64,000 nt of DNA from the NCBI GenBank assembly GCA_031263485.1, contig JAISFS010000099.1, positions 1-64,000 on the forward strand, in the 5' to 3' direction. This DNA comes from Deltaproteobacteria bacterium. GTDB taxonomy: Bacteria; Desulfobacterota; Desulfarculia; Adiutricales; Adiutricaceae. The first letter of the stretch is position 1. Each line of letters begins with the position of its first letter. Made by a program: the position numbers and the translations under genes. The notes below the pieces were generated by a model, which saw only the letters and a list, made by a program, of their open reading frames with translations, was not told the origin of the DNA and ran no database searches. Shown one piece after another: positions 7,557 to 56,629 of this stretch.

Positions 7557-8230
7557 ATGACAATGGATTACAGTGTTTCCCTCACCAATCAGCAGCGGAC
7601 AATGCTCGATAAAATCGTAAAGAAGGGGAATCTTCCTGGCTTTACCATTCTGAAAGCCTTGGCTCTCTTGCTTTGCGATAAGCATCCCGAGGGCCGGGCT
7701 AAGCAGACCCCCGGGGAAGTAAGCCGCGAGCTCAACCTTGCGCCAGCGGCCGTACATGTACTTCTAAAACGGTTTCACGTAGGAGGGGCTACTTACGCTA
7801 TAGGACTCAGGAAGCTGAACATCCCGCGAGATCCCGCATCTTTCGATGACGCTTTCAAGGCAAAGTTGGTTGCCTTGGCATGTTCGCCGCCGCCTCCAGG
7901 TGCTAAGAGATGGAGTTATCGCCGTCTGGCAGACATGCTCGAGGAACTAGGGCTAACTCCCCCCCACGGGATATCGACCACAACTGTCAGCAGGTTCCTG
8001 GCTGAAGCGAAGGTGGACCTACTGTCAGGAACCATCGGAGGTCCCCGCCGGAGAAAGAAAAAGCCGGTTCGTACTGGCAACTATATCCGCACATGAGGCC
8101 TTCCGGCCTCCCTGCGGCCCAAAACTCCTGTCTTAAGCATGCGCGAATCCGACAAGCGAGCAATTTCCGGCAAGGGTTCCATGGCAACCGTCTCGGGCAA
8201 ACCATTGATGATGCGTTCCCAAAAAGTCCA
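7557..8230 (+). pseudogene. second IS630-family transposase, internally deleted
   Basis: An open frame of 179 codons (7557-8096) has an excellent AAGGAGG site and a TATAAT-like -10 box at 7525-7530. It encodes two helix-turn-helix units: residues ~40-90 (GEVSRELNLAPAAVHVLLKR) and ~100-155 (DAFKAKLVALACSPPPPG...HGISTTTVSRFLAEA). A TGA stop ends it. In the same frame a short piece of the catalytic domain follows (ESDKRAISGKGSMATVSGKP, about 8140-8200). The middle, including the DDE core, has been deleted. The N-terminal piece may still be translated and could bind the element's ends. Confidence 0.7.
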
Positions 8231-9550
8231 GAGTATCCTTAAGAGGGGGGAGACCTACCCGCCTCCACCCGCCACTCACTCAGACATCCGGGTTCCGATG
8301 CGCGGAGCCATCGGCCCGGAAGCCTTTGCTCGGACCCCTCGACCCGGGGGTTGACGCCCGGAGCTATTGCGCGGAGGCACCGTTCCGGGGACCGTGAGGG
8401 GGAGTCGGCCCCCGGAGGCCATGCGGGGCACCGCAAATCCGGAGGCCGTGGGGCGGAGATGCATGTCACTGTCTCGTGACTTTTTGCGAACGCATCATCC
8501 ATAGTTCACGGCGAGAATTTCAGGCACGTGACAGCAGGCAGTTCTTCGCTATCGAGACCCTGGCAGGAAAGCGGACGCGGCCCTCAGGGAGTTGTCGAAT
8601 GCTTTAACGCCTGCCCCAGTCCGCAACCCCACAGATAGACCCCGTTTGACGCACCCTTGCCACCATTGAGCGCAAGCCCCTTAAACCCTAGAGACTTGCC
8701 TGCGGCAAGGTACCCTTGGACGAGTTCGGCAATGCGACTTCGTCATATCGCCATCGAAGGGTGAGGGTGATAACTTGGAACCATCTACATAAAATATCCT
8801 AAAAAATTAATAGCGCAGCCTTTATGTCACACAATACCATAAGTATGTCACCCTGAAATTATAATTTCACTCAAACGCGAATATTTTTCCCATTTTATAT
8901 CAGAATATCGTCCGATTACGCGCTCGGCATCCCTGCCCCAGGACAGCGTTGCCACTTGCGGCACAGAGCAACAGAGTTTTTCCAGGGCCCCCTCACGGCG
9001 ATCCCGCCCGTGACGCCGGGACACCTGCCCGGGCCCAGCAGTTGCCACCCACTGATGGCTCGACTCCTCATGGCGGCCCCAAGCGAAACCGAGGTCCCGG
9101 CACCCTGCTCCAAATCTCGGGTGACGGCCCTCCGGTCTGCCAGGCGGCAACGGCTTCAGGAGCCATCCGTTTTTAAGGCACCTGTGCCAGATAGTCCTGC
9201 GGATTGACCAGCTGCCGGAGAAGCGCCGCCCTCTTCGTACGCCCCCAGCCCATGGGCTTTCGCTTGAAAGCCTTGCCCGTCAAGGCCTAGGGCATTCTAT
9301 TGACGCTAAGGGCAAAATAAGGTAATTCTGGTTATTCTCCGGATCATCCCCGGGGCCTTGTCATGCCTTTCCCGCGTATCCTGCGTCTACCTGCCGTCCC
9401 TTTCCCTCAGACGCCGCTCACGCATATGCCGCCCCTGCGAACGTTCGGGCAGACCGCAAGGCCTTGGTCTCGTGCCTTGACGGGGCACATCCGGCAAGTG
9501 CCCGGCCCTCACGAGGTCACCAACGGCGGGCAGGGAGAACTCCCACGAAT
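8231..9550. other. gene-free stretch before the TPR-CHAT pair
   Basis: No gene is supported. Around 8290-8460 there are irregular GC-rich repeats of the type CCGGAGGCCATGCGGGGCACC. Around 8770-8900 the sequence is AT-rich. Nothing recognisable as an RNA gene or terminator. Confidence 0.4.
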
Positions 9551-11461
9551 ATGCCCATATTCAATAGCACGGACAACACTGGCCTTTCCATCCAAGCCCT
9601 CCTGGCTGCCGCCCTGAAGTTGCTGGACGCGGGAGATGCCGACAAGGCCAGAGCCATGCTCGAGCCCGTCCTGGAGGACCGCGCCAAGGGACAGTCAATG
9701 GAAGACTCCATTCTCATGGAGGCGAACCATGCCTTAGGGCTCGCCTTCGCCATGAAAGGCAACCACAAGGCCGCGAAGCTCTGGCACGCCAGGGCCCTGG
9801 AAGGCCAGATTCGGCTCGCGGGACCGAGGGACATGCGCACCGCCTGTTTCAAGATGCACCTGGCACTGGCCCACCTGAGGCTGGGTGAGCTCAAGCGGGC
9901 AGCGGAGATCATGACGGAGGCGGAAACCCTCGCAAGCTCCCCGGGCAACAGGAACAACCCACTAGCTGTGGACTGCGCCGAAGGCATGGCGGAAATCCTC
10001 GCTAAATCGGGAAACTTCATAAGAGCGAGAGCCAAGGCCGAAAAGGCCCTCTCACGGAGGCTCACCCGGCAGGGCCCGGAACATCCGAAAACGGTACGCC
10101 TTCTGTGGCTCCTCTCCGGGATTCTCATGGGCCAGGGGGACGAGGAGGGGGCCAGCCGCCTGCGGCTCGCCGCCCTGCGGGCTCTGGAGAAACGGAAAAT
10201 CCGGGCGCTCGAGAGGGCTGTGGCCCTCCTCGGGGGGAACCGCGACGCAACCCCGAAACCAGTGCATCCGTCGAAGGGCCGGAGACCCTGGCGGGGCTCC
10301 GGGCCCCTCACAAAGTCTCGGCCCGGCCCCCGACGCACAACGCCCTACCCCATGCCTCCCGAGAAGGCCCGGGTGAGGCCAATCGCGGACCATGCCCCCA
10401 TGAGCATGCTGGCCGCCGCCATCCGTGAGCAGGAGAAGCGCACCCGGACTTCAGAACTCATGCTCAGGCTAGAGCGCACGGAAGCCGGTCGGGGGCCGGA
10501 TCACCCCGAAACCTTCCGTTGCCTCGTGAGCCTTGCCAAGGGGTTGCGCACGGCGGGGGAGCTTAAGGAGGCCTTCTCCCCGCTCCACCGAGCGCTGGAG
10601 TCGGCGATCCGGACCTCGGGCCGCGGCAGCGCGGGGGAGGCGCTCGCCGCCGCCGCGCTTGGCGACCTCTTCGAGGAAGGGAGGGACATCAGGACGGCCA
10701 TCTTTTTCCACAAGCTGGCGGTCGCCGCCGCGCTCTCCGGCACCGATGCCCGCAGGGAGCTCTTCTTGGCCGGATCCCCCTTTGAGCAGGACTGGGATGA
10801 GGCGATGGGGGACCGGTACCGCTCTCTCTTCGAGGCCCTACTGATAGAAACGCGGACTTCCGAGGCGCTGACCGTGCTGGAGGCCATGAAACGCGAGGAA
10901 CTCGCGGAAACGGTAGGCACCATGGAGCCGTCGCGTCCCGAAGCGCCTCGAAGCGCCGCAAAGGGCGCGGTCGCGCCCGGGAACCGGCCGCCAGCGTCGG
11001 CTTCAAGCGAGGCGGACGCCTGGCTTGCCGAGGCCCTCTGGGCCGGGACCCCCGATGAGGCGGCATACGCCGTCTATGCAGCCGCTGCCGGGACGCTTGA
11101 CGTCTTGGGCAAGGCGGCGGCGAGGCGCTCCGCTACACTGAAAAGACCCTTGAAGGCGCAGCGCGACCGCGAGCGGACAGACGAGATCGCCGCCGACCAG
11201 GCTCTGGCGGGTGCCGGGCGAAGGCTCCTGGAAATGCTGACGCGGGTCCAACGGCACTACTGGCCGACGGCGGCGCTGGAGAAGGCCGCAGGACGGGCGG
11301 TCAGGCCTGAAATGCCTTCGGTTCCGAAACTTCCCGCGCAGGAGGACACGCTGGCTAAGACGGCTGACGAGACGCGGGAGACGCCACTGGCCGGGACGGC
11401 AGATGCGGGTCGTGCGGGCGGACCGGGTTTGCACAAAGGGGCGGGGGCAACCAGGCGATGA
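9551..11461 (+). CDS. TPR protein, first half of a split TPR-CHAT pair
   Basis: I chose ATG 9551 (636 residues); an earlier in-frame start at 9464 would only add low-quality sequence. Residues 10-220 and 300-440 form TPR-type helical hairpins (GPEHPKTVRLLWLLSGILM, GPDHPETFRCLVSLAKGL), separated by a Pro/Arg-rich linker. Near residue 440 comes the pattern found just before CHAT domains (YRSLFEALLIETRTSEALTV, MKREELAE). The CHAT domain itself is in the next gene, whose ATG overlaps the TGA here (ATGA, 11458-11461), so translation is probably coupled. No signal peptide, so probably cytoplasmic. Together the two genes look like one TPR-CHAT protein split in two. Confidence 0.85.
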   Translation: MPIFNSTDNTGLSIQALLAAALKLLDAGDADKARAMLEPVLEDRAKGQSMEDSILMEANHALGLAFAMKGNHKAAKLWHARALEGQIRLAGPRDMRTACFKMHLALAHLRLGELKRAAEIMTEAETLASSPGNRNNPLAVDCAEGMAEILAKSGNFIRARAKAEKALSRRLTRQGPEHPKTVRLLWLLSGILMGQGDEEGASRLRLAALRALEKRKIRALERAVALLGGNRDATPKPVHPSKGRRPWRGSGPLTKSRPGPRRTTPYPMPPEKARVRPIADHAPMSMLAAAIREQEKRTRTSELMLRLERTEAGRGPDHPETFRCLVSLAKGLRTAGELKEAFSPLHRALESAIRTSGRGSAGEALAAAALGDLFEEGRDIRTAIFFHKLAVAAALSGTDARRELFLAGSPFEQDWDEAMGDRYRSLFEALLIETRTSEALTVLEAMKREELAETVGTMEPSRPEAPRSAAKGAVAPGNRPPASASSEADAWLAEALWAGTPDEAAYAVYAAAAGTLDVLGKAAARRSATLKRPLKAQRDRERTDEIAADQALAGAGRRLLEMLTRVQRHYWPTAALEKAAGRAVRPEMPSVPKLPAQEDTLAKTADETRETPLAGTADAGRAGGPGLHKGAGATRR

Positions 11462-13095
11462 GCGGACCTAAAGACAGGCGTACCGAAGACGCGTCCCGGA
11501 AAGAGGCGGCAACGTCACCTGAAACGTTGAAACGGGCGGAACTGGAGCGGATGGCGGCGGCGGGCCGCGCGAAGATGAAGCGACTGGCGGACGCGAAGCT
11601 CAAGTCTACTGCACCGTGGGTGCCCGATACACAGAGCCCGAAGAAATCAACGCATCCTGCCTGGGACGAGTGCCAGGCCGAGCTGGACCGGCTGACTGAG
11701 AAGGCTGAACGCAGGGCTGAACAGGCGCTCCGGGCGAAGCCCGATCGCCAGCCCGGCGATTCGCGCAGTGCCCGGGAAAACCGCCCTTCGGCGTCCAGGC
11801 TCCAGACGGAGGCCGAGCGTCGGCTTATTGCCGGTCACCGGGCCCAAACCGAACTCCGGGCCGAGGCCAACCGCCGAACCGAAACCGCACGCAAGCGCGA
11901 GGTAGCGCAACTGTCTGTACTTAAGCGCCGGGAAGAGGCTAAGCGCCGCGCCGAGGCAGAGGCCGAGCGTCGGGAAGAGGACTGGCGCCGCATCGAGGCT
12001 GGATTCCGTATCGCATCCAACCGCCGAGCAGAAGCTGAACGCAAGGCAGAAGCGGAGCGCAAGGCAGAAGCGGAGCGCCTCGAATCTGAAGCCATGCCGC
12101 CGCCTGCCGAACGCCTCCGCTTTCTTCAGGCTGAACTAGCCCGATCCTCCGGCGGGTCGGCGCTGGTCTCCCTCATCCCCTCCGACAGGTTCATGTTCGT
12201 GTCGCTCGTGACACCCTCCGGCACCTTCCGCGGCAGGGTGGAGATACGCCGGGACGTCCTATGGGAGATCGTGCATCGCTTCCTCAAGGAGCTCACGGAT
12301 CCCCGAAGCGATCCGAAGGAGACGGCGAAAACGCTCTACGACATCGCGATAAAGCCTCTGGAGGGCCTCATCGACAAGGACGGAGCAGTGACCATCGCGT
12401 TCTTGCTGGACGGCCTCCTCCGCTTCGTCCCTCCGGCAGCGCTGTGGGACGGCAAGCAATGGTTCGCGGAGAAGCGCCCTACAGCCGTCGTGACCGCCTC
12501 CACGGTTGCCCGACTCATGCGGGGGACCCCGCCCTTGCCGACCGTAACGGGGGCACCGGATCTCGAGACGGCCTGGGAAGTCGTACGGGACGAGACGGAA
12601 TTCAGGCGTAGCCTCATCCGCGCCGCAGGTTCCGCCGCAAGGCAACTCCGGGTGGCTAACCCGCTGGCGTACGCGCCTGGCACCGCCGGCGGCTCCTCGC
12701 TCGTCATGGGGAACGGGAAAAGACTCAGACTCTTCGACTTTCTGAGAGATCCGTCCTTGGACCTGCGTGGCCTGGATCTCATGGCGTTCGTGGGAAGCGA
12801 TGTGGAATACTGCGGTTCTACCAACGGCGCCGAGATAGAGATCCTTAGCGACCTCCTCCAGGCGCGCGGCTGTGCCGCCGCACTCGAGCCGTTGTGGAGC
12901 GCCGCGGACGAGTCCGCAGGCACTCTGGTGGGCGAGTTCGTCCATCTTCGGGCGGACGAGGGCAAAAGCAAGGCGGAAGCGCTCCAGGGGGCGCAACTGG
13001 CGGTCCTGGAGAAGGCTACGTCCGGCAGGGCTGAAGTGTCCCTGTCGCACCCGCGCTACTGGGCGTCCCTGGTCCTCAGCGGGGACTGGACGTAA
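11458..13095 (+). CDS. coiled-coil CHAT-fold protein lacking the protease dyad
   Basis: 545 residues. Residues 20-215 are a charged coiled coil (repeats of RRAEAERKAEAER). Residues ~285-545 follow the CHAT caspase-like fold in order: LYDIAIKPLEGLIDKDG, FLLDGLLRFVPPAALWDGK, GLDLMAFVGSDVEYCGSTNG, NGAEIEILSDLL, EPLWSAADESAGTLVGEF, and the C-terminal HPRYWASLVLSGDW. In active CHAT proteases a His lies in an HxATHG motif and a Cys in LSACET. Here the first region reads RVANPLAYAPG, with no His, and the Cys position aligns with Asp448 (FVGSDVE); Cys452 is four residues away. The protein is therefore predicted to be a pseudo-protease. It is co-translated with the TPR gene upstream. Confidence 0.85.
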   Translation: MSGPKDRRTEDASRKEAATSPETLKRAELERMAAAGRAKMKRLADAKLKSTAPWVPDTQSPKKSTHPAWDECQAELDRLTEKAERRAEQALRAKPDRQPGDSRSARENRPSASRLQTEAERRLIAGHRAQTELRAEANRRTETARKREVAQLSVLKRREEAKRRAEAEAERREEDWRRIEAGFRIASNRRAEAERKAEAERKAEAERLESEAMPPPAERLRFLQAELARSSGGSALVSLIPSDRFMFVSLVTPSGTFRGRVEIRRDVLWEIVHRFLKELTDPRSDPKETAKTLYDIAIKPLEGLIDKDGAVTIAFLLDGLLRFVPPAALWDGKQWFAEKRPTAVVTASTVARLMRGTPPLPTVTGAPDLETAWEVVRDETEFRRSLIRAAGSAARQLRVANPLAYAPGTAGGSSLVMGNGKRLRLFDFLRDPSLDLRGLDLMAFVGSDVEYCGSTNGAEIEILSDLLQARGCAAALEPLWSAADESAGTLVGEFVHLRADEGKSKAEALQGAQLAVLEKATSGRAEVSLSHPRYWASLVLSGDWT

Positions 13096-13153: not shown

Positions 13154-14401
13154 ATGCCGGAAGAACCCAAGCGACACGTCGCCCGCAACCCAGCCCCCTT
13201 GCAGATGCATGCGCCGCACGGCCCCTCATCGCGCGAGCCAGGGTCTCGCAGACCATCATCTCGCGGACCTGTGGCTCACAGGCCCTCTTCGCGCGACCCG
13301 GCATCGCGCGTGCCTGCGGTTCACAGCCCAACGCCATGGCTGATGCATGACTTCTTCGCAGGCAGCGGGCTGGTGGGGCTCGGGCTCGCGGGCATGTTCC
13401 GACCGATATGGGCCAACGACTCCTGCCCCAGGAAGGCCGATGTCTATCGGTCAAATTCGTGCGGCGAGCATTTCGTCCTGGGGGACGTACGCAACGTGCG
13501 CGGGCTGGATCTCCCGTTCGCCCACCTGTCCTGGGCGAGTTTCCCCTGTCAGGACCTCTCCCTCGCCGGGCCAATGGGCGGCATCGAGGCTTCAAGGAGC
13601 GGGCTCGTCTGGGAATGGCTGCGCGTGGTTCGCGAGACCTCCCCACGACCGGCCCTGCTCGTCATGGAGAACGTGACGGGTCTCCTCTCGGCAGGCGGGG
13701 GAGAACACTTCCGCAAGCTCCACGTGGCGCTGGGGGAGGCCGGCTATCGGGCGGGCGCCGTGGTCCTGGACGCCGCGATTTTCCTGCCGCAGTCCAGGCC
13801 ACGGGTCTTCGTGATAGCCGTGACCGCCGGAGCGAGAGTCCCGGAGGAGCTCGTGTCCAAGGGCCCGTGCTGGCTCCACAGCTCTGCGGCGTCCTCGCTC
13901 GGGGCCTCGCTTCCGGACTGGATCTGGTGGAGCGCACCCGAACCGGAGATCCGGCGGCCCCGCCTCAATGACATCCTGGAGCCGGATCTGCCCTTCGACA
14001 GGGACGGGGTGCTCCGGCTTCTTGGACCGCGCCACAAGGCGGCTCTGGACGCGCTGGAGAACGCCGTATCCACGGGCTACCGCCGCACCCGGAACGGCCG
14101 ACAGCTTCTCGAGCTCCGTTTCGATGGCATGGCGGGGTGCCTGCGCACCCCTGACGGGGGGAGCAGTAAGCAGTTCCTTGTCGTGAAGAAAAACGGCCGG
14201 GCAGGGGCGCGGCTCCTGTCCCCGCGGGAGACGGCGAGACTCATGGGAGCACCGGATGGCTTCGTCCTGCCAGTGCGCCCCAACGATGCCTACAGGGCTA
14301 TGGGCGATGCCGTGGCGTTGCCCGTGGCGAGGTTCTTGGGCAAGGCCATCCTCGCGAAACTCGCCGAGTCGATCTATGGCGCCACCACCGGCCAGAGCTG
14401 A
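13154..14401 (+). CDS. C5-cytosine DNA methyltransferase
   Basis: Dcm-type enzyme that transfers methyl from AdoMet to cytosine C5. The motifs are in canonical order: I DFFAGSGLVGLGL (residue ~66), IV SFPCQDLSLAGP with the catalytic Cys (~131), VI MENV, VIII QSRPRVFVI, and IX/X at the end (NDAYRAMGDAVALPVARFL). The target-recognition region is short. The first ~60 residues are a 30-bp tandem repeat translated as PSSREPGSRR-like units. The true start could instead be ATG 13343, just before motif I; neither start has a strong ribosome site. No restriction endonuclease is adjacent. It lies 58 bp after the CHAT gene and converges on a second methyltransferase. Confidence 0.92.
   Translation: MPEEPKRHVARNPAPLQMHAPHGPSSREPGSRRPSSRGPVAHRPSSRDPASRVPAVHSPTPWLMHDFFAGSGLVGLGLAGMFRPIWANDSCPRKADVYRSNSCGEHFVLGDVRNVRGLDLPFAHLSWASFPCQDLSLAGPMGGIEASRSGLVWEWLRVVRETSPRPALLVMENVTGLLSAGGGEHFRKLHVALGEAGYRAGAVVLDAAIFLPQSRPRVFVIAVTAGARVPEELVSKGPCWLHSSAASSLGASLPDWIWWSAPEPEIRRPRLNDILEPDLPFDRDGVLRLLGPRHKAALDALENAVSTGYRRTRNGRQLLELRFDGMAGCLRTPDGGSSKQFLVVKKNGRAGARLLSPRETARLMGAPDGFVLPVRPNDAYRAMGDAVALPVARFLGKAILAKLAESIYGATTGQS
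13216..13310. repeat. 30-bp imperfect tandem repeat at the methyltransferase 5' end
   Basis: About three units of 30 bp with the core ATCGCGCGAGCC / ATCTCGCGGACC, each encoding ten residues (PSSR-x-P...). The repeat may be an intergenic repeat that happens to stay open in the methyltransferase frame. Confidence 0.6.
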
Positions 14402-14505: not shown

Positions 14506-15375
14506 TCAAACGACCACTATCCTGGCCCCGGTAACCCCATCCAGAACGAGCCGCTTGCGTGCGAGTTCCACGTATTCGGGATTGAGCTCGATCCCCACGT
14601 ATTTCCGGCCCGTCTTCCGGCACACTTGGCCGACCGTGCCCGATCCGAAGAACGGGTCGATCACGAAGTCGCCACGCTCCGAGGAGGCGAGGACGCAAGG
14701 CAACACGAGTTCCGGCGGGAAGGTGGCGAAGTGTGCGCCGGTGAAGGGCTTGGTCGGGAGCCGCCACACCGTGCGCAAGGCCCGCCAACCTCCCCCGTCC
14801 GCCGGCTCGCGCACGGCGTCCCAATCGTAGTGGTAGGCCTGGGACTTCGTGAACATGAAGACGTACTCGTGGGCCCTGGTCGGGCGGTCCTTGACGCTCT
14901 CCGGCATGGCGTTGGGCTTGTGCCAGACCACATCGCTCCTCAGATACCAGCCGTCCTCCTGCAGCGCGAAGGCCAGCCTCCAGGGAATTCCCAGGAGATC
15001 CTTGGGCTTCAGGCCTTCCGGGGTGTCCGGGCGAACCTCCATGGCCCGGGCCCGGTTCTTCCTGTCAGGAGCCCTCCAGCCGCGGTTGCCGCTCGTGTAG
15101 CCGTCCCCGATGTTTATCCAGAGGGTGCCGTCGTCCGAAAGCGAGCGCCTAAGCTCCGCGAACACGCTCACCAGTCTCCCTATGAAGAGCTCGGGAGTGG
15201 GCTCCAGGCCCATCTGGCCCTCTATGCCGTAATCCCTCAGCCCCCAGTAGGGCGGCGAGGTGACGCAACAGCGCACGGCACCGGAGGGCAGGCGCCTGAG
15301 CGCCGCAAGCGCGTCCCCCTGGAAGAGCACCGAGCCCTTGAGGGAGTAAGGGCGAGGCTGACGGGAGGCTACCAT
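14506..15375 (-). CDS. beta-class DNA methyltransferase (SPPY type)
   Basis: 289 residues. The catalytic motif IV comes first (TSPPYWGLRDYG, residues ~39-50) and the AdoMet-binding FxGxG motif last (DPFFGSGTVG, ~242-251), the order of beta-class N4-cytosine/N6-adenine methyltransferases. SPPY is more usual for N4-cytosine enzymes, but substrate cannot be fixed from sequence. A GGAG-type ribosome site precedes ATG 15375. It is convergent with the C5 methyltransferase (104-bp gap), and no cognate endonuclease is visible. With the TPR-CHAT pair it forms an island that may be defensive or self-marking; this is inference. Confidence 0.92.
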   Translation of the reverse strand: MVASRQPRPYSLKGSVLFQGDALAALRRLPSGAVRCCVTSPPYWGLRDYGIEGQMGLEPTPELFIGRLVSVFAELRRSLSDDGTLWINIGDGYTSGNRGWRAPDRKNRARAMEVRPDTPEGLKPKDLLGIPWRLAFALQEDGWYLRSDVVWHKPNAMPESVKDRPTRAHEYVFMFTKSQAYHYDWDAVREPADGGGWRALRTVWRLPTKPFTGAHFATFPPELVLPCVLASSERGDFVIDPFFGSGTVGQVCRKTGRKYVGIELNPEYVELARKRLVLDGVTGARIVVV

Positions 15376-17346
15376 GCGCTGGACCTTCTCCCCGAGGATG
15401 ACGCGGGCCGTTGCCTCCGGGATGATAAACCAAGAAGCATCCGCCGCAGCGGCAGGACGTCTGAAACCGAGCCCCGCTCGGCAATGCGATACGGTAGCGG
15501 AAGCCGGATGCCGCGCGGCGACCGGCGTCTCATATGGACGCGGGACGGTGGCCCGCCATGCCGATACGGCACGGCTCCGGAATCGGCACGGGGGCGCAAC
15601 TCCCCCATGAGCGGATCACTTACCACTTTCCCCGGAAATGGTCAAGGCGACCGCGTCCTTTCGATACCCGCGTTACCCAGATACCCGCGATACCCGCGTT
15701 ACCCAGATACCCGCGATACCCGATATACCCGATATACCCGATATACCCGGATACCCGATATACCCGGATACCCGATATACCCGATATACCCGGATACCCG
15801 ATATACCCGGATACCCGGATACCCGATATACCCGGATACCCGATATACCCGGATACCCGATATACCCGGATACCCGATATACCCGGATACCCGCGATACT
15901 CAAAGAAGCTACAAGACGAGACAACCGCTAGATCCCTATCGAGCCTACTGGATCGCTCAGGACGGCCAACATGTGTCTTTTGAGAAGTCAACCCTAAAGA
16001 GCTGGTAAACAGGGAGAACGAGACAACGCGGCGAACTTTTGTCACACTATCGCTCGTGCCGACAAGCCGAGAAGCACCTGAACGGTTTCCTCCTTCTCCT
16101 GCGGCTTGCCGCCCGACCGCCCTACGGCGCTTCATTTCCACGATCGAAGGCAGACTATCGGGCCCGCTGTCGAGGAATACGCCAATCTCTAGAGCCTTAT
16201 CCCCCTCAAATTCTCACCTCGCTCGGGATTTCCTGAGCCGAAGCAACCTCGTCCCCCCGCGCAACAAAATTAGTATCGCAAATTCCAGCCGAAGACTATT
16301 GGGGTCCGGGGGGCAATGACGTCCGCAACGGCACCCGCAACTCTGGAGACTCCCGAACCCCTTCCCCCGGAGCCCCGCTCATTTTGAGGGCGACCATGGC
16401 AGCCATCACTGTCCCGAACATTGCCATCTCTCTCCGCATCATGCAGAATACAAACGAACGCGTCCTCAGGTGTTGACGCGAAATGATACCGATATCCGCC
16501 GCACGCGTTATTCCAGGGGCGGGCCGTGGTGGCAGGACGTAATCAAGAAGCCTCCAGCGAAGCCTTGCAGACATAATCGGCAAGGCGGACGAAAATCCGC
16601 CCGCTGACCGTCCCGACTCGCCTGGGCACGCCGCACTGGGCATCGCCCCCGCGAGACCGCCAGGAAAAAGGCTATCCCCGAGACTGTTCTGACCGGAGGC
16701 TAGCCTTGCGAGGAGATTGGAGCACCTCCCTCGCGGAGGCCTGGAACCTGGAGCTACCTGATGGAGGCGAATGCCGGCCAGGTTGCCCACCCAGCCCATA
16801 GGGTGAAACCTTGCTCGCCACACGGCCAAGATAGCGGGGTCCCTGAGGGAAACGCCGGAAGGAACACTGCAGGCCAGACGGTCGGCGGGCGTCACCTCGG
16901 GGCTCGGATTGCGGCGCAGCGGAAGATGGCTAGGCAGGGGACGTTCAGCAGGAGTCGCGGAACATCCGCGGGTTCCCGTTCGGATGTCTTGTCCGCCTCC
17001 GTGGACGGAGAAGGGCTGACATCAGGATCGAGAACGGATTCGGTTCGCGCCCGGACGGCAGAAGGTCAGCCCCTCGGTTCCGGTGAAAGGCGTCCCTCGA
17101 CATCGAGAAGTCTGCGGACCAAGGGCCCTTGGCGGCTTCAAGCCGCAGATACGAGCGACAAAAAAGCTGTCGGAAGGTTTTCTCCTGCCTGATTGAGGTG
17201 TATAATGGGCTTCACTATTGAAATCGCGTACCATAAGGCAAACGACAAAGCGTCATGGAACCATACTCACTTCAGAGCAACCCTTCGCGCGCGACGCCGG
17301 AGCGGCTATCCCGTTGGCCGGGGCCTTACGGCCGCAGGAGGACAGC
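15376..17346. other. long gene-free region containing a GATACCC array
   Basis: Apart from the tandem array at 15662-15899, no gene is supported. An open frame of 199 codons on the minus strand (16296-16895) resembles nothing and is probably a chance frame in GC-rich DNA. The promoter of the minus-strand methyltransferase should lie in the first part. Confidence 0.4.
15662..15899. repeat. GATACCC / GATATACCC tandem array
   Basis: About 240 bp made of 8- and 9-bp units GGATACCC and GATATACCC. These alternate as a 17-bp unit over most of the length; the left part uses a 26-bp unit with GTTACCC variants. Some 25 copies of ATACCC occur on one strand. All units point the same way and there are no spacers. 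It lies upstream of the minus-strand methyltransferase gene. A small 19-bp repeat with the same GGATACC core occurs at 18564-18610. Confidence 0.9.
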
Positions 17347-28510: not shown

Positions 28511-31157
28511 CTGCCCGCCCGACGGATCAGGAGGCGGCATCCGGCCCTAAATCCTTTGCGTTCCCCATGGTGCGGGATAGCCGATGTCACCGGAACCTCC
28601 ATGGCAGAAAGGCGAGCCGGCGCAGGGCCGACGATGCGGAATGCCCTCCAGTTAGTCGCCTCATGAAGGCTATGCACGCGGCAGCCCGGGGTCGGAGTTA
28701 CCGACATGGTTCGGCCATGGCAGGACAAAGGCCGTTCCCCCCGGGAGGCGTTGACATTTACCTCCCGCGCTCCGCCTCGGCCGCAACGGTCGGAATAGCG
28801 GACAGGGGGCGCCTCAGGACGGGATGTTCATGTCGGTCGACCGCCAGGCTCATGCCCTCGCTTCGATGGGGGATGTCCGAGGCGTTTATCGTCCTCGGGG
28901 AAACCCACGCGGAAGCCGAACGCGACCCCGGTTGCGGGTATCCGGCCTCCCTTCGACCGCGTCCGTCCTCGCAACCGCGAAACGCCGCCCGGGCAACCGC
29001 GAGGACACGGAGGCCTCCCTGTTCGGCGCTTAAGGCCTGCCAGCCATCGGCGGCTCTTTCTGCCCCGATGCCATATGTCTCGGTGAGGATCCGGTATCCG
29101 CCATCCTGCGCTCGGGGACGGTTGCGGGGAAGGGGCGATATTATCCCATGTTGCCGAAGGCAGAACGAAGTACTCCGGGCGTTTCCATCAGATGCCCAGG
29201 CCGCCGCCGCCGGCCTTGCCGCCATCGAGGCTGCCTCCGGGGAGCTCGTCAATATGCCGAGGAACTCTTCAGAAAAATCCAAATGTGCTATGCCTGGTGC
29301 CGCACGCGCATGGTCATGACCAATACCATGGGGAAGGGGCCTCGACTGCGGTGCCGATCGCCCTCAGGCTCCGGCAGAACCTGAAGATCAGGAGGACCCA
29401 AACCAGATAGCCCTCCCAAGCTCCTCGGGGCATCTCTCCAAAACCCGCTTCCGACCCAGCATTCTCCAAAACTTCCTGTCACATTACTCTTTCTACGCCC
29501 TGAGGGCACCGCAACCAAATCGGCTCCCTCGGACACGCCGTAGCCAGATCGGCAACCCTCTCCCTCCCAAAAAATGACCGCGGTCGATAAAAGCACACCC
29601 AATCAACCAGTAAAAAGGGGGAGACCCCCAAAAAATAAGAGCCCGTCACGCAGAAAGTTTTCGGAACATAACAAATAGATTTGCGAAAATATACGAATCT
29701 GAATGAAACGACGATTGCCAATGATTCTAATTATTCAGATGGTTGGCAGGGGAATCAGCTGGTTTTCGTCACGATCGGCAACTGATTCCTTATATATTCG
29801 GCATTTCTAGCAATTGCCCTTTGGAACATCGGTGTTATCTGGCATTGATAAAATGGAACGAGAGGATAGCAGAAATATAAAGAATTTGAATAATGGATAA
29901 ACAATAATGCTTATGAATCAAAGGGGATCATTGGCAATATCTTAAACTGCCCAAATAATCAGACAAGACAAACCATGATATAAAGTACACTTGACAAAAT
30001 ATATGCGAAAATACGAATTTCATGCGAAAATCAGGAGGGAAAAATCTTGCCGATATCTGGCATTGGCAAATGCTTGTCCCGTAAGACCTTGAAGGCTTCA
30101 CCCGGACGCGGACGATCCCCGGCCACAAACACTGAGCTGCCCTAACTGCGTAAAATATTGAAATCACGACCGAAATACGTTTCGCAAAGGCGATTCGCAC
30201 GGCTTCTTGCGTTTGCCTGCCCGACAGGTTTAACGTATCCCATCTGCCTGAACTCCAGCTCCTCCTCCGGACCGGAAAAGAAAGCTCGACCGCCTTCACC
30301 AGCCGGCTTGTCGACAGGCCCGCCAAGTTGGCATCTGAACTTGACAGACGGTGAAACCAGGGGGTCGCATGCTAAACCGTACCTCCGGGGGCGGCAAGGC
30401 CATGCAAGGGCACATGGTCGCTCCCGACGGTCAAGACGGCGCGGCAACCGTCTGGCGCCCGTGGCAACCCGTTCCGCAGACCGGCTTCACCCTGCCTCAG
30501 ACCTCGGACCCTATCGACAAGGCAAACTCGATGGACCACGCGATAACCATAACGACCGGAAACGGTCACCCGACCGAGCTGCCCAAAGACGGGGAAACTG
30601 TCACGGCAGGCAACCTGTTGCGGCTCGATGCGTCCCCGCGCGTCTCCGTGCGTCCGGAAGGCGTGACGGACCCGGTCGTCAAGGCCGACACGATCCGGCA
30701 TGCCGACCCCGCCGGGATCGGGCAGGATTCAGGCGGAGAACGCGGCCAGGAAACCTGCGGGACTGATGCCGTCTCTAAAGCGAAAGGGACGGGTGGAGAG
30801 TCGGCAGTGCCCTCCGGGCCACCTACCCCGATAGCCCGGAGCCTGCCAGCGGTCACGCCGAACGGAATTCAGCCGGAATCCGGCACCGTCAGGCTCGCGA
30901 CGGAAGACGCGGGAACCGGCACCGGCCCGCGTGGCACGCGCGGTCGAACGGCAACCGGGAAATTGCCGGTACCAGGCATCATGACTCTCCTTGTCACGGC
31001 GGCGGCCCTATCATGTCTTGCGGTGATCTGCCTTTGGCTTCCATGTCAGGCGCAGGCCGTGAGAGGAACACAAACGCGGCTTGCCGCAAAGGCGACGAAT
31101 CCCGTCCCGTCCTGGAACGGGAAGTTAGACTTGAATTTAAGGCATCAAGGCAGCGCA
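28511..31157. other. gene-free region upstream of the restriction locus
   Basis: 28511-29300 is GC-rich with open frames that resemble nothing. 29600-30060 is strongly AT-rich. From 30351 an open frame runs into hsdR without a stop; its first 269 codons are discussed with hsdR. The promoter of the restriction locus should be here but no clear one was found. Confidence 0.4.
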
Positions 31158-33737
31158 ATGGCCTTCAAGACGATTTTCGACGGGTATATGTTCGATTTTG
31201 ACAGCGGCACCAGACTCTTCCTCCCAATAGGGATGGTTGGATCTCCCCTCTACAGACACATAGGCATTGAATTCGGGTCAAGCCAATCCGATGCCGAAGC
31301 ATATCCGGAAAGCCCGGTTAAAACGCAACCGTCAACCGGATGCTCGGAAAGGAACGTGCCGGACGGGATCGGCCTGTATCCGAACGAGGCCGAAACAAGG
31401 GCAAGATTCATTGACCCTGTGTTAAGGGAAAAGTATTCCGACAACCAGATCCGGGCGGAATACTATTACACGAACGGTAAGATCACGATAGGCGAATACG
31501 GGGTGACTCGCGGGAGGGGGAAAAGGGTAGATTACATGCTCTTGTGCGCGCCAAATATCCCCATAGGCATCATCGAGGCCAAGGCATACGCCATGCCGTC
31601 AGGGATGGGCTTGCAACAGGCCAAGGCCTATGCCAAGGATCTCAACGTCAATTTCGCGTTCAGCACCAACGGACAACAGGTACGGGAGTTCGACAGCCTG
31701 ACGGGGACGGAGAGGGAATTCGACATGATACAATTCCCAAGCGCGGAAGAGCTGCTGTACAGGATGTCGCGAAACAAAAATTGGACACCGAATCAGACCA
31801 GGATCAACACCACGCCGTTCAGCGATTCCAAAGGAGGAAAGACGCTTCGGTATTACCAGGCGAATGCGGTCAATCTGGCTGTTGAGGCCGTGTCACGGGG
31901 CGAAAAGCGCATCTTGCTCGTGATGGCGACGGGGACAGGGAAAACTCTTACGGCGTTCGAAATAATTCACCGGCTCAAGGATGCAGGCTACATCAATAAA
32001 GTTTTGTATCTGGCCGATCGTAACATCATTATCGACCAGACAATTCAGGGAGATTTCAAGCATTTCAAACAGAAATTAATCAAAATCTCCTGCAATTCCC
32101 TAGACAGCTCTTATGAGATATACATGTCGCTGTACCAGCAACTTGGCGGTATGCCAGGAAAAGAAAGGTTCAGGGAGTTCAAGAAAGACTTCTTTGACCT
32201 TATCATTATCGATGAATGCCACAGGGGCAGCGCGAAAGACGATTCGGTTTGGCGCGAGATACTGGAGCATTTCGACGATGCCATCCAGATCGGCATGACG
32301 GCCACTCCGAAGGAAACAAGATCCGTCTCCAGCACCGGATACTTCGGGGAGCCCGTATACGTATACAGCCTTAAAAACGGCATAGAAGACGGATTCCTAG
32401 CGCCGTTCATGGTCATTCAGGTCGATATAGACGTCGACTTGGAAGGTTGGACTCCGTACCCGGGCGAAACCGACAAGGACGGAAAGGAGATCACGGAAAA
32501 GCGGTACGCAAGGAAAGACTTCGGAGGGTCAATCACGCTCCGGAGCCGCACTCAGCTCATCGCGAGATGGGTGAGCGATTACTTGAAATCCACCGACCGT
32601 TTCAACAAGACCATGGTGGTCTGCCCGACGATTGAATATGCCGAGGAAATGCGAGGCTTTCTGGCACAGGAAAACCCCGATCTGATGTCGGAAAACGGCA
32701 ACTACGTGGCGCGAATCACAAGCGGCGATATCGGCGCTGAAAACCTGCTGGAAGATTTCATCGACCCGCAAAGCAAGTACCCGGTCATAGTCACTGTCTG
32801 CCGGATGATGACGACAGGGGTCGACACCAGAACCTGCAAGGTCATCGTGATAGACACCAACATTCAATCCACGTCGGAATTCAAGCAGATTATCGGGCGG
32901 GGCACGAGGCTGGTCCCAGAGTACATCGTTGACGGAGAAAAACGCGAAAAGTCATTCTTCACGATCATCGACTTCCGAGGCGCCAGCAAAATTTTCGAGG
33001 ACAAGGAGTTCAACGGTGAACCCTTGCCCATCAAAGACAGGGAAATCACCAAGAAATTGGCGAGCCTTGGCTCCGGCGGGAATTCCTACGGGAGCTCATT
33101 AGAGAACGGTTCCGGAAGCAGCGGTTTCCCGAAAGAAATAGAATCCGGAGAAAGGAGTACAGGCAAGGGACATGCCGTAAAATTCTGCGTCGAAGGCGTT
33201 GAAGTGACGGTTGACAGGGAAACGGTCAAATTCTACGACGGCGCAGGACAGTTGGTGTCGGAGAGTGTTTCAGGATACTCCAAGAGAAATTTCCTTAAGC
33301 TATATCCGACGCGCGATGGATTCCTATCTGCCTGGAACGATTGTCGCGTCAAAAACGAGATAATCGAAACCCTGCAGGAACATGGCGTACTCCTAATCGC
33401 TTTGCGGGAGACCATCGAAGGGAAAATCGACGATTTTGATATTTTCTCGAGCATCGCATACGGCATGCCGATGTTGACGAGAGAAGAGAGGGCTAAGAAG
33501 ATCCGTGAGGACGGGATTCTGGACAGGTATCGCGGCAAAGCATGCAAGGTGATGGACGCCTTGATTGACAAATATGTCGAAAACGGAATAGCGGATCTCG
33601 AAGATCTCCGGATCCTCAAGATCGAGCCGTTTCCGTCATTCGGCAACCTGAAAGCCATAGTTGAAGCATTCGGAGGAAGACAAAATTTCATCGACGAAGT
33701 CCACCGGCTGCGGACGGCACTGTATTCGATACCATAG
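31158..33737 (+). CDS. hsdR: type I restriction endonuclease subunit R
   Basis: HsdR cleaves and translocates DNA as part of the R2M2S complex. Family motifs in order: NEAETRARFIDPVL near residue 73, the nuclease core VDYMLL...IGIIEAKA, Walker A MATGTGKTLTAFEII (~255), the DEAD-type box IIIDECHRGSAKDD, GMTATPKE, and motif VI QIIGRGTRLVPE. An EcoEI-type C-terminal domain follows. I prefer ATG 31158 (AAGG upstream, 859 residues). The frame is open back to 30351, which would add 269 residues with one hydrophobic stretch (MTLLVTAAALSCLAVICLWL), unlike known HsdR N-termini. GC content is lower than in neighbouring regions, suggesting acquisition. hsdM and hsdS follow. Confidence 0.93.
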   Translation: MAFKTIFDGYMFDFDSGTRLFLPIGMVGSPLYRHIGIEFGSSQSDAEAYPESPVKTQPSTGCSERNVPDGIGLYPNEAETRARFIDPVLREKYSDNQIRAEYYYTNGKITIGEYGVTRGRGKRVDYMLLCAPNIPIGIIEAKAYAMPSGMGLQQAKAYAKDLNVNFAFSTNGQQVREFDSLTGTEREFDMIQFPSAEELLYRMSRNKNWTPNQTRINTTPFSDSKGGKTLRYYQANAVNLAVEAVSRGEKRILLVMATGTGKTLTAFEIIHRLKDAGYINKVLYLADRNIIIDQTIQGDFKHFKQKLIKISCNSLDSSYEIYMSLYQQLGGMPGKERFREFKKDFFDLIIIDECHRGSAKDDSVWREILEHFDDAIQIGMTATPKETRSVSSTGYFGEPVYVYSLKNGIEDGFLAPFMVIQVDIDVDLEGWTPYPGETDKDGKEITEKRYARKDFGGSITLRSRTQLIARWVSDYLKSTDRFNKTMVVCPTIEYAEEMRGFLAQENPDLMSENGNYVARITSGDIGAENLLEDFIDPQSKYPVIVTVCRMMTTGVDTRTCKVIVIDTNIQSTSEFKQIIGRGTRLVPEYIVDGEKREKSFFTIIDFRGASKIFEDKEFNGEPLPIKDREITKKLASLGSGGNSYGSSLENGSGSSGFPKEIESGERSTGKGHAVKFCVEGVEVTVDRETVKFYDGAGQLVSESVSGYSKRNFLKLYPTRDGFLSAWNDCRVKNEIIETLQEHGVLLIALRETIEGKIDDFDIFSSIAYGMPMLTREERAKKIREDGILDRYRGKACKVMDALIDKYVENGIADLEDLRILKIEPFPSFGNLKAIVEAFGGRQNFIDEVHRLRTALYSIP

Positions 33738-34105
33738 CCAGGAACCTGGACTTTCCGGTTGGAGGAATGGCGATATCCGGCCTCCTTGGGGCAAGGCTTC
33801 CCCGATAATCGGATGCGTCGGCGCCTTTTTCACTGCTAATGGGTACCAAACAGCATAATATTTATCGGCATCGTATCGGGGAGTCATCCCTATTCACGGG
33901 GAATCATGATCGTCGTTTCAGGGCACTTCAGGATATCCAGAGCGGCACTTTCGCCTCTTCTTGGGCATTGCCTTGAGTGAATCATGCGGAACTGTCCTTA
34001 CGACCGGCAAATCGTTCGGACAGACCGTGGAAACGGTCCCGCCGCCGGAAACGGCATACCGCGCGGCACATGCTTTTCATAAGCACCTACTGACGGCAAG
34101 CAATC
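33738..34105. other. gap between hsdR and hsdM
   Basis: 368 bp without a supported gene. It is unusual for this operon type to have such a gap, so hsdM and hsdS may have their own promoter here, but none was clearly seen. Confidence 0.4.
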
Positions 34106-35578
34106 ATGGACATCAACAGCTTCATCAAGAGCGTGAACGATATCATCAAAAACGACGTCGGAGTAAGCGATTCCGTGCAACGGATCGAGCAGACGATCTG
34201 GATCCTGTTCCTTAAGCTTTACGACATCCTGGAAGAGGAATGGGAGCTCATCGACCTCGATTTCTCATCGGTAATACCGGAAGAGTTCCGTTGGCGGAAT
34301 TGGGCGGTAGACCATATGGACGGCAAGGCATTGACTTCGGATGCCCTTCTGTCTTTCGTCAACGACAGGCTGTTGCCCGCACTGAAGTCGATCGCGGTCG
34401 TGCGGGCGATGCCTTTTCGAAAGATCGCCGTCAAGTCGGTGTTCGAGGACTTGAACAACTACATGAAGGACGGCATATTGCTTCGGCAGATCGTCAACGT
34501 CATTGACCGCTTGAAACTCGATACTGAAGACGCGCGTCAAGACTTTACCTGTATCTTCGAAAAGATTCTGCAGAGCCTTCAGTCCGAAAAATCCACCGGG
34601 GTCTTCTACAGCCCCCGCCCGATTACCGACTTCATGGCGCGGATGACGGAACCTAAGATCGGTGACAGGATAGCTGATTTTGCGTGCGGTACCGGCGGAT
34701 TCATGATCTCGTCCCTGAAACTCCTTGGAGATCAGGTCAAGTCGTCTACGGACTTGAGATCGCTTGACAGGACCTTTTTCGGAATTGAAAAGAAATCATT
34801 TCCCTACCTTCTGTGCATGACGAACCTGTTCCTTCACGGAATAGTCGATGCGGAAATATGGCACGACAACTCGCTCTCTAAAAATTTAAGGGACTACTCC
34901 AGCGACGAATTATGTGACTTGATCCTCATGAACCCGACCTTCGCAGGCAATGAAAAGGATTCCGTCAGGTTCAATTTCCCATCGAGTCTACGTTCGACCA
35001 AAACCGCGGATCTGTTCCTGACTCTGGCGATGTATCGCCTCAAGCCTAACGGACGGGCATCGGTGCTCGTCCAGGATTCGTTCATGTACGGAACGGACAA
35101 GATCAAGACAGCGATCAAGAAAAGACTCGTAAACGAATTCAACCTACACACCGTGATCCGCTTGCCCAATTCCGTTTTTGCGCCGTTCAGCCAGACCGCG
35201 ACCAACATTATTTTTTTCGACCGCAGAGGAATGACCGAAGCCATCTGGGTTTATCGCCTGGACATGCCGCAGGGTGCCAGGAACTTCACCGCTGAAAAGC
35301 CGCTGACATCAGAACATTTCCGACAGATCATCGATTGGTGGCATAGACGCGAGGAAATTTCCGTAAACGGCCTTCACAAGGCCAGACGGGTCACGAGAGA
35401 GGAAATTGCCGCCTCCAACTTCAATCTAGATGTCTGCGGGTTCTCGGCCTATTCGGAGGAAACCTACCCTTCGCCTCGGGATTTGATACGGCTCCAGCGT
35501 GACGTTATGACTGAAAGGAGCGGGTCATTGGAACGCAAGCTCGCGGAGATCGAGGCAATACTGGAGGAGAACGCGTGA
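34106..35578 (+). CDS. hsdM: type I modification subunit M, variant NPTF motif
   Basis: 490 residues, N6-adenine methylase subunit. The N-terminal helical domain begins MDINSFIKSVNDIIKND. It has SPRPITDFMARMTEPKIGDR and AdoMet motif I ADFACGTGGFMISSL (~residue 191). The catalytic motif IV, normally NPPF/Y, reads LMNPTF (Asn276-Phe279), with Thr for the second Pro. The VLPDG-like segment reads VLVQDSFM. These changes may weaken or abolish methylation. The next gene, hsdS, starts within its stop (GTGA overlap at 35575), so the two are translationally coupled. A second hsdM downstream keeps the normal motif. Confidence 0.93.
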   Translation: MDINSFIKSVNDIIKNDVGVSDSVQRIEQTIWILFLKLYDILEEEWELIDLDFSSVIPEEFRWRNWAVDHMDGKALTSDALLSFVNDRLLPALKSIAVVRAMPFRKIAVKSVFEDLNNYMKDGILLRQIVNVIDRLKLDTEDARQDFTCIFEKILQSLQSEKSTGVFYSPRPITDFMARMTEPKIGDRIADFACGTGGFMISSLKLLGDQVKSSTDLRSLDRTFFGIEKKSFPYLLCMTNLFLHGIVDAEIWHDNSLSKNLRDYSSDELCDLILMNPTFAGNEKDSVRFNFPSSLRSTKTADLFLTLAMYRLKPNGRASVLVQDSFMYGTDKIKTAIKKRLVNEFNLHTVIRLPNSVFAPFSQTATNIIFFDRRGMTEAIWVYRLDMPQGARNFTAEKPLTSEHFRQIIDWWHRREEISVNGLHKARRVTREEIAASNFNLDVCGFSAYSEETYPSPRDLIRLQRDVMTERSGSLERKLAEIEAILEENA

Positions 35579-37218
35579 TAGCGGCACGGCTGAAATTATC
35601 GGTTCTTCAGGCCGCGGTGAGGGGTAAACTCGCTCACCAGGACATACGCGACGAACCGGCCGTGATCCTGCTGGAGCGGATCGATGCCGCCAGGACAGGG
35701 CGGTACAACTGCGGAACCTCCAAAGGTTCGATCCGATCCTCAAGGATTGTCAGAATCCATGACGGCTCCCCAACGGCGGAAGACGGCATTTCTTGCCGCT
35801 TCGTCGAAAAGAACGACCGCGGTGACGAGCCGGACGTGACGGGCGAGATTCCCTTCGGGGTGCCTCCGTCTTGGGAGTGGGCCCGCCTTGAATCGCTTGG
35901 CATGATTCTCGGAGGCCACACTCCCAGAAGGGACAACCCTGACTTCTGGCACGGCGACATACCCTGGCTTACATCATCGGACATGAACGAAGTTTCCGGA
36001 AAATTTATATACAGCGGCAAGGAATACATCACTGAACGCGGCATGAAGGTGTACCAGAAATCTATGATTCCCGAAGGTTCCATCGTCTATTGCGCGGTCC
36101 AGGGGATAGGCCGCATCGCGATAGCCGGCAACCCGTTATGCACAAGCAACCAATTGAGGTCCATCGCTCCATATGTCTCTGGGATCGTTCCGTATCTCTA
36201 CTACTGCCTGATTGAAAGAACGCCGCATATCAGGAGCATGGCCAGAGGGGAAATTCACCCGAATATCAATTCCGGCGTCCTGGGGCAGACGCTTGTCCCT
36301 ATTCCTCCTTTGGCCGAACAGAAGCGTATCGTAGCCAGACTGGACAGGATATTGCCTCTCATCGACGATTATGCCGCCATGGAAGCGGAAATGACCGACA
36401 TCGAATCCCGTTTCTCGGTCAGCCTCCGGGAATCGTTCTTGCAGACCGCCGTTCACGGCAAGCTGACGGCACAGGAGACCGACGATGACCCAGCGCGCTT
36501 CCTCCTCGATCACCTGCGCCGCAGCCGACGGAATATCGTCGCCACATCCCGTTTTATCGCCGACACGTCAAGGATTGTCCGTGCCGCGAATCACGTCGGA
36601 CGCCTCCCTGACGAGCGCTGCCGCTTTCTGGAGGACGTGCCTGGACGTCCCGCCGTCGACGTCACAGATGATTTGCCTTTCGAAATTCCCGGCACGTGGG
36701 AATGGGCCCGCCTGTCGACTCTCGGCCAAATCATCAAAGGCTCATGTCGTGCCACGGAAAATCCCGACAACTTCATCGACGGCAACATACCGTTCATTTC
36801 GGCTTTCGACATCAGGCGGAACCCCGGCATGCTCGTCAGCGGAGGCGAGAGGATGATCACCGAACGGGCGGTCAAACGCGCTCCCCTGAGAATCGTTCCG
36901 GCAGACTCCGTCGTTTTTTCCTCTCTCCCCGAATCTCAATGCACCGCTGTCACGGCAAATCCTCTATGCATCAACAACAACCTCTTCGCCATAATCCCGT
37001 ATGACACAGTTATCACTGAATATCTGTATTTCGTCCTCCTCCAGCGAACCCGCGAAATTTTCAGCAGGGCAACCGGTTCCGCCATGAAAACGATCACCTT
37101 GCAGAATTTCAAGCTGACGCCGGTTCCGATTCCGCCACTTTCCGAACAGCGCCGCATGGTCCTGCGGCTTAAAAGGCTACTCCCCCTCATTCCCGGCACG
37201 GTCGGCCAGTCGACTTGA
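35575..37218 (+). CDS. hsdS: type I specificity subunit S
   Basis: 547 residues with two target-recognition domains. TRD1 starts IPFGVPPSWEWARLESLG (~residue 92) and ends with PIPPLAEQKRIVARLDRILP. TRD2 starts LPFEIPGTWEWARLSTLG (~363) and ends with PIPPLSEQRRMVLRLKRLLP. Each is preceded by a conserved helical region that binds HsdM (SLRESFLQTAVHGKLTAQE in the centre). The duplicated build is typical of type I systems that recognise a bipartite site. The GTG start overlaps the hsdM stop by four bases. The C-terminus is short after the second repeat. Confidence 0.93.
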   Translation: MIAARLKLSVLQAAVRGKLAHQDIRDEPAVILLERIDAARTGRYNCGTSKGSIRSSRIVRIHDGSPTAEDGISCRFVEKNDRGDEPDVTGEIPFGVPPSWEWARLESLGMILGGHTPRRDNPDFWHGDIPWLTSSDMNEVSGKFIYSGKEYITERGMKVYQKSMIPEGSIVYCAVQGIGRIAIAGNPLCTSNQLRSIAPYVSGIVPYLYYCLIERTPHIRSMARGEIHPNINSGVLGQTLVPIPPLAEQKRIVARLDRILPLIDDYAAMEAEMTDIESRFSVSLRESFLQTAVHGKLTAQETDDDPARFLLDHLRRSRRNIVATSRFIADTSRIVRAANHVGRLPDERCRFLEDVPGRPAVDVTDDLPFEIPGTWEWARLSTLGQIIKGSCRATENPDNFIDGNIPFISAFDIRRNPGMLVSGGERMITERAVKRAPLRIVPADSVVFSSLPESQCTAVTANPLCINNNLFAIIPYDTVITEYLYFVLLQRTREIFSRATGSAMKTITLQNFKLTPVPIPPLSEQRRMVLRLKRLLPLIPGTVGQST

Positions 37219-56081: not shown

Positions 56082-56629
56082 AGGGGTCTCCTCGGATGCG
56101 GCGGCCCTGCGGCGGGGATGCCGCGCGGCGACCGTGCGCCGCCGGGCTTCCCGCTGTCCGCCGGTTCCGCCGTCTGTGTTTCGCCGGCCTTTCCCGTCGC
56201 CGGCGGATCGCCCGGCGGCCCGGACCGGCCGATAAACGATTCTGGGGGCTCCCGCCTCGCCTGTCAAGCGGATTCTCGCCCGCAACGCCGGTTTCCGGCG
56301 TGACACCGGACGGCCCGGCGCTCCATGCCGACGGCCAGGGCGCGCCCGGAGCGCCCCCGGCAGGGCTTCACGCGGCGTCCCCAGATCCCAGGTCGCTCCC
56401 GGCAAGGCACTGCGAGGCACCGCACGGCCCAGGTCACTCCCGGCAAGGCACCGCGCGGCACAGGTCACTCCCGGCAAGGCAGCGCGCGGCACAGGTCACG
56501 CCCGGCAAGGCATCGCGCGGCACAGGACACTCCCGGCAAGGCAGCGCGCGGCACAGGGCACGCCCGGCAAGGCACCGCGCGGCCCAGCTCACTCCCGGCA
56601 AGGCACCGCGCGGCACCAGCAGGGCCAGT
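56082..56629. other. gap holding a 31-bp tandem repeat
   Basis: Between the serpin 2 start and the aas stop. Apart from the repeat at 56398-56624, nothing is supported. Long open frames across the repeat are a by-product of its composition. Confidence 0.5.
56398..56624. repeat. 31-bp tandem repeat, about 7 copies
   Basis: The unit CCCGGCAAGGCACCGCGCGG plus an 11-bp tail. Starts at 56439, 56470, 56501, 56532, 56563 and 56594 are exactly 31 bp apart, with a longer first unit from 56398. It ends just before the aas stop codon, so it would be in the 3' end of that transcript. Confidence 0.95.

Follow-up and report, generated by a model that had tools for sequence, protein, structure and literature searches.

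A TPR-CHAT protein without its catalytic dyad beside a cytosine methylase gene: a candidate regulator in an expanded bacterial family

The catalytic residues of TPR-CHAT have been given as H585/C627 in one numbering (PMC9729208) and, for TPR-CHAT/Csx29, as H615/C658 in another (PMC10028731). Replacement of the Cys by Ser or Ala inactivates the TPR-CHAT of Craspase (PMC9729208), and the H615A/C658A mutant of Csx29 is likewise inactive (PMC10028731). Caspase-like proteins that are inactive are already known from animals, as in the case of FLIP(L) (PMC7586951), and from the bacterial orthocaspases (PMC6426788). The literature searched contained no account of dead TPR-CHAT proteins forming a clade that is kept in several species.

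The present analysis concerns a pair of overlapping genes in a 64-kb window, i.e., the whole stretch of 64,000 nucleotides that was analysed, from a genome that is 82.8% complete (the source genome, called G000 in the comparison with the genomes G001 to G005 of the same genus). The features needed for the discussion are the following.

9551..11461, + strand: TPR half, 636 aa (Pfam TPR_12, E 3.7e-18; codon usage supports the start at 9551)
11458..13095, + strand: CHAT half, 545 aa (Pfam CHAT, above the threshold with E 5.7e-17; start overlapping the TPR stop in ATGA, coding frame switching where the two ORFs meet)
12100..13092, + strand: CHAT domain proper, 331 aa folded (AlphaFold2; matches to PDB structures)
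12649..12651, + strand: Arg398, at the position of the first His in HxASH, the family motif (alignments)
12661..12663, + strand: Pro402, replacing the catalytic His (alignments, including one by profile to TPR-CHATs of known structure)
12796..12798, + strand: Ser447, replacing the catalytic Cys, with Asp448 next to it (alignments)
13154..14401, + strand: cytosine-C5 DNA methylase, 415 aa, 58 bp downstream of the CHAT gene (Pfam DNA_methylase, 8.8e-42)

By homology of its CHAT domain the CHAT half is a member of the TPR-CHAT family, as it matches Pfam CHAT, clusters with the TPR-CHATs of the genus, and has a predicted structure that matches Csx29. The AlphaFold2 model, obtained with 44 sequences, has a pLDDT of 88.6 and a pTM of 0.89 (a single-sequence model was poor, with a pLDDT of 41, and was not used), and its best matches in the PDB are Csx29/TPR-CHAT (lowest E value 7.6e-12) and separase. 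When the PDB was searched with the sequence by itself, only chance matches came back, and the 44-sequence profile was needed. Since CHAT is the sole Pfam match and the PDB matches are to TPR-CHAT and separase, the protein is not a pseudo-orthocaspase of the C14 p20 type. The model also matched the ciliary central-pair entries 7sqc, 9ijj, and 7n6g, which ranked after TPR-CHAT and separase.

The active-site motifs of the genus, as obtained from alignments, are HxASHF and LSACDT. A profile of 44 relatives was used to align the CHAT half to TPR-CHAT proteins of solved structure, and the catalytic positions map one to one. The position of the catalytic His is occupied by Pro402, and the preceding His of the family motif is Arg398, in agreement with the sequence-only reading, which had reported the His as missing. 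The same reading had placed an Asp at the position of the catalytic Cys, which turns out to be off by one: the residue there is Ser447, and the adjacent Asp448 corresponds to the acidic residue (Asp/Glu) found right after the Cys in the SACDT/SACET of active members. The nearby Cys452 lies five residues downstream of Ser447, in a poorly conserved loop, and does not align with the catalytic position. In the AlphaFold2 model, Pro402 (model residue 188) is found on the strand that carries the His in the relatives, and Ser447 (model residue 233) where the Cys-bearing strand ends. Of the conserved columns, 2 of 10 are kept near the catalytic site, compared to 45 of 63 elsewhere (Fisher p = 0.003), so that the loss is concentrated at the site. 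The confidently predicted CHAT/separase fold agrees with the earlier statement that the fold motifs are kept. With Pro402 and Ser447 where an active CHAT protease has its His and Cys, the dyad is gone, and the CHAT half is therefore predicted, from its sequence, to be unable to cleave by the known mechanism. The designation as a pseudo-caspase is thus supported by the TPR-CHAT alignment, by the inactive Cys-to-Ser mutant of Craspase (PMC9729208), by the fold, and by the dyad-less sister sequences discussed below.

A reading in which the CHAT half is an active hydrolase, with Ser447 assisted by another base, was also considered and is very improbable. Ser is a possible nucleophile and sits at the Cys position, but there is no His at the His position and the Cys-to-Ser exchange abolishes the activity of the Craspase TPR-CHAT (PMC9729208). 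Moreover, the position of Ser447 is taken by Gly in both sister sequences, on which ground the Ser-protease reading was rejected. A re-purposed conserved pocket was looked for within the three-member clade and none was found: the region of the former active site, with 8 of 44 columns conserved, is less conserved than the rest (41 of 143), so that no such pocket is visible.

In the tree, the CHAT half forms one clade, with a support of 100/98, with G001:C589 and G004:C206, two proteins from other genomes of the genus. The search for relatives with the same substitutions that had been proposed yielded two sisters that also lack the dyad, the two positions being Pro/Ser in the CHAT half and Ala/Gly and Pro/Gly in G001:C589 and G004:C206, respectively. 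The former, which is cut by a contig end, is 48% identical to the CHAT half over 181 columns, and the latter is fused, its TPR and CHAT matches being 255 aa apart. No clade members were found in G002, G003, and G005, a single-protein scan of the collected genome contigs gave no relative, and scans of viral contigs with the CHAT half and the cytosine methylase gave none either. The relatives that could be named, 'Deltaproteobacteria' metagenome bins with codes such as Gx481, Gx485, and Roe453, appear to originate from termite guts, as suggested by this naming and by a termite-gut survey (PMC9137090).

The clade is of importance for a less favorable interpretation, according to which the locus is a pseudogene in decay, one of many paralogs, whose function is lost and whose dyad loss and split both reflect degeneration. 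Fragmented or interrupted CHAT copies do occur in the genus (L085, L091, L113, and L093, which has an internal TGA), and the split is present in the source genome only. However, the loss of the dyad is common to three species at 35-48% identity, the codon periodicity and 45 of the 63 conserved columns outside the active-site region persist, and the CHAT fold is predicted with confidence, all of which makes decay unlikely.

The numbers of Pfam TPR-CHAT rows in G000 to G005 are 9, 36, 13, 0, 24, and 15, respectively, fragments included. One or both catalytic residues are missing in 12 of the 56 complete CHAT domains of the genus (both in eight, only the Cys in two, and only the His in two), and in the source genome 4 of 7 CHAT domains are degenerate. 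Incomplete or interrupted copies can be degenerate as well, L083 lacking both residues and L093 the His. The tree requires six changes between the intact and degenerate states, four of them forced by well-supported branches, which suggests that catalytic loss in the genus arose through at least 4-6 separate changes. In a sister genus of the same family, two of the CHAT domains read from G019 are degenerate. Among the contig loci, which were picked by similarity and are thus not a random sample, the dyad-less sequences besides the CHAT half are two, both of the genus of G000 to G005. The active TPR-CHATs of the source genome are located on other contigs, none near 9551-13095. Orthologous tandem pairs, in which an intact TPR-CHAT is directly followed by a degenerate one, are found in G005 (L106:5693-14830) and G004 (L135:1704-11396). 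By analogy with FLIP(L) and caspase-8, such pairs would fit a regulation of the active copy by the inactive one; their degenerate members belong to a different degenerate clade from that of the CHAT half at 11458-13095.

Among the elements of the finding, the division into two genes is the one on the weakest footing. The TPR half contains two TPR_12-type repeat blocks, at about aa 12-214 and 307-526, the second of which scores 227 bits against the family's CHAT-proximal TPR, and the CHAT half starts with a charged linker of about 205 aa, rich in Ala, Glu, and Arg, that precedes the CHAT domain. A codon-usage model trained on the other genes of the source genome places the start of the TPR gene at the ATG at 9551 rather than at the TTG at 9464, and shows the reading frame of the coding signal shifting at about 11420-11460. 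In the sequence as assembled, TPR and CHAT are not on one polypeptide at 9551-13095, where two overlapping ORFs lie in different frames. As stated in the sequence-only reading, the two parts normally occur in one protein: in nearly all relatives checked a single ORF covers both, most often joined by a linker of about 57 aa; the exceptions in the genus are contig-end copies, broken copies, and L096, an ORF of 597 aa in which no TPR was matched. Since the closest complete relative is also fused, the split is specific to the source genome, and it may result from a frameshift or from misassembly.

The split may stem from a frameshift introduced in assembly or sequencing, with the true gene encoding a fused TPR-pseudo-CHAT protein of about 1180 aa; this is a serious possibility, if somewhat short of an even chance. 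The closest complete relative has 1174 aa (compared to 636 + 545 for the pair), the frame change sits in the unconserved linker close to G runs, and the source genome is a draft of 337 contigs. Against this stands the ATGA overlap at the junction, which is typical of coupled genes. The split position coincides with the annotated junction to within about 30 bases, and a one-base frameshift there would give an identical picture. Of the proposed split pair, the two ORFs overlapping by ATGA are confirmed, and their being separate genes is indistinguishable from a frameshift. The frameshift concerns only the split and is compatible with the preferred reading of a catalytically dead protein. If the split is real, the halves would probably be made by coupled translation and then reassemble. 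Scans for promoters and terminators yielded no signal exceeding that of shuffled sequences, and no Rfam families were found in the window. A partial IS630-family transposase is located upstream of the TPR gene (7557-8096, + strand).

The cytosine methylase downstream of the pair has PCQ and ENV motifs, as active enzymes do. Orthologs of it, 68-76% identical, lie on the same strand downstream of the two other clade members, about 0.5 kb away in G001 and some 3 kb away in G004, where one gene, encoding 600 aa of no known family, is found in between. Of the six genus genomes, only the three with the pseudo-CHAT clade contain the ortholog, and no close ortholog was found in G002, G003, and G005. 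The pseudo-CHAT and the methylase are adjacent by observation and probably constitute one maintained module. The link comes from three related genomes that are 74-83% complete and is suggestive only, with shared ancestry of the region as a live alternative. The adjacency may be explained by the shared synteny of related species, because a PPC-domain gene is also syntenic between the source locus and G001. A methylase that is a mere positional neighbor, kept by shared ancestry while the pseudo-CHAT acts without it, would agree with this synteny and with the intervening gene in G004, but not so readily with the restriction of the ortholog to the genomes that have the clade; we regard it as quite plausible, though not the favored view of the methylase link.

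Among more distant methylase homologs (43-56%), the methylase is followed by a DUF4928 restriction enzyme in three genomes and by a TIR protein in one. In G009 (L237:5620-7346), a cytosine methylase homolog overlaps a CAP12/Pycsar-type TIR gene. PADLOC gave no match for the TPR and CHAT genes. No restriction enzyme cognate to the cytosine methylase was found at the source locus, although an unrecognized nuclease may serve it. A second DNA methylase, of the N6/N4 type, faces the cytosine methylase (14506-15375, - strand) and is without a counterpart in the other TPR-CHAT loci that were retrieved. The 17-base unit GATACCCGATATACCCG is repeated in tandem about 13.5 times at 15663-15899, between a methylase gene and a PPC-domain gene. 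The window also contains the Type I restriction-modification genes hsdR, hsdM, and hsdS (30351-37218, + strand), a SUFU-domain protein (47381-48232, - strand), and a Serpin-family protease inhibitor (54759-56492, - strand; PF00079, 2.4e-94).

On balance, we lean toward the CHAT half being a catalytically dead member of an expanded TPR-CHAT family that acts by binding, in a methylase-linked module. The residues required for cutting are lost, the shape is kept, and disabled relatives lie beside the same methylase in at least three species, so that the protein is probably a regulator rather than a protease. The non-catalytic role of scaffold, decoy, or regulator put forward in the sequence-only reading is a reasonable inference; that reading did not bring up the conserved methylase neighbor or the repeated inactivation within the genus. 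In such a mechanism, the TPR part would recognize a partner or a signal, and the CHAT body, like FLIP(L), may dock onto TPR-CHAT paralogs that are active, or onto the substrates of these, and tune their activity. A more far-reaching version, in which the pseudo-CHAT replaces the restriction enzyme beside the methylase and controls active TPR-CHATs elsewhere, in a FLIP-type surveillance linked to DNA methylation, is speculative and has a low probability. A genus having active and dead TPR-CHATs side by side is a natural system in which to ask whether inactive paralogs regulate bacterial caspase-like proteases, and the methylase neighbor suggests a tie to the marking of self and non-self DNA.

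It is instructive to compare the locus with the known systems. Csx29/TPR-CHAT of the type III-E CRISPR system (Craspase) has the same TPR + CHAT architecture and fold, with corresponding catalytic positions, but it keeps the His and the Cys, which are both absent here, and works with Cas7-11, whereas no cas genes, including gRAMP/Cas7-11 and Csx30, were seen among the annotated genes of the window. The bacterial pseudo-orthocaspases (C14 p20) also have a caspase fold with the His and Cys replaced, the Cys often by Ser, and their FS variant also carries TPRs; they are, however, p20 proteins, mainly of phototrophic Alphaproteobacteria and Cyanobacteria (PMC6426788), while the CHAT half is of the CHAT/separase type. 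The human pseudo-caspase FLIP(L), an inactive paralog of active caspases (PMC7586951), is the proposed working model for the CHAT half, although the two have no adaptor domain in common and the partner of the CHAT half is hypothetical. Finally, the neighboring methylase is of a family whose members elsewhere in the class are paired with DUF4928, as in Type II restriction-modification; in the genus, where the DUF4928 enzyme had no match in G000-G005, it is the TPR-pseudo-CHAT gene that adjoins the methylase instead.
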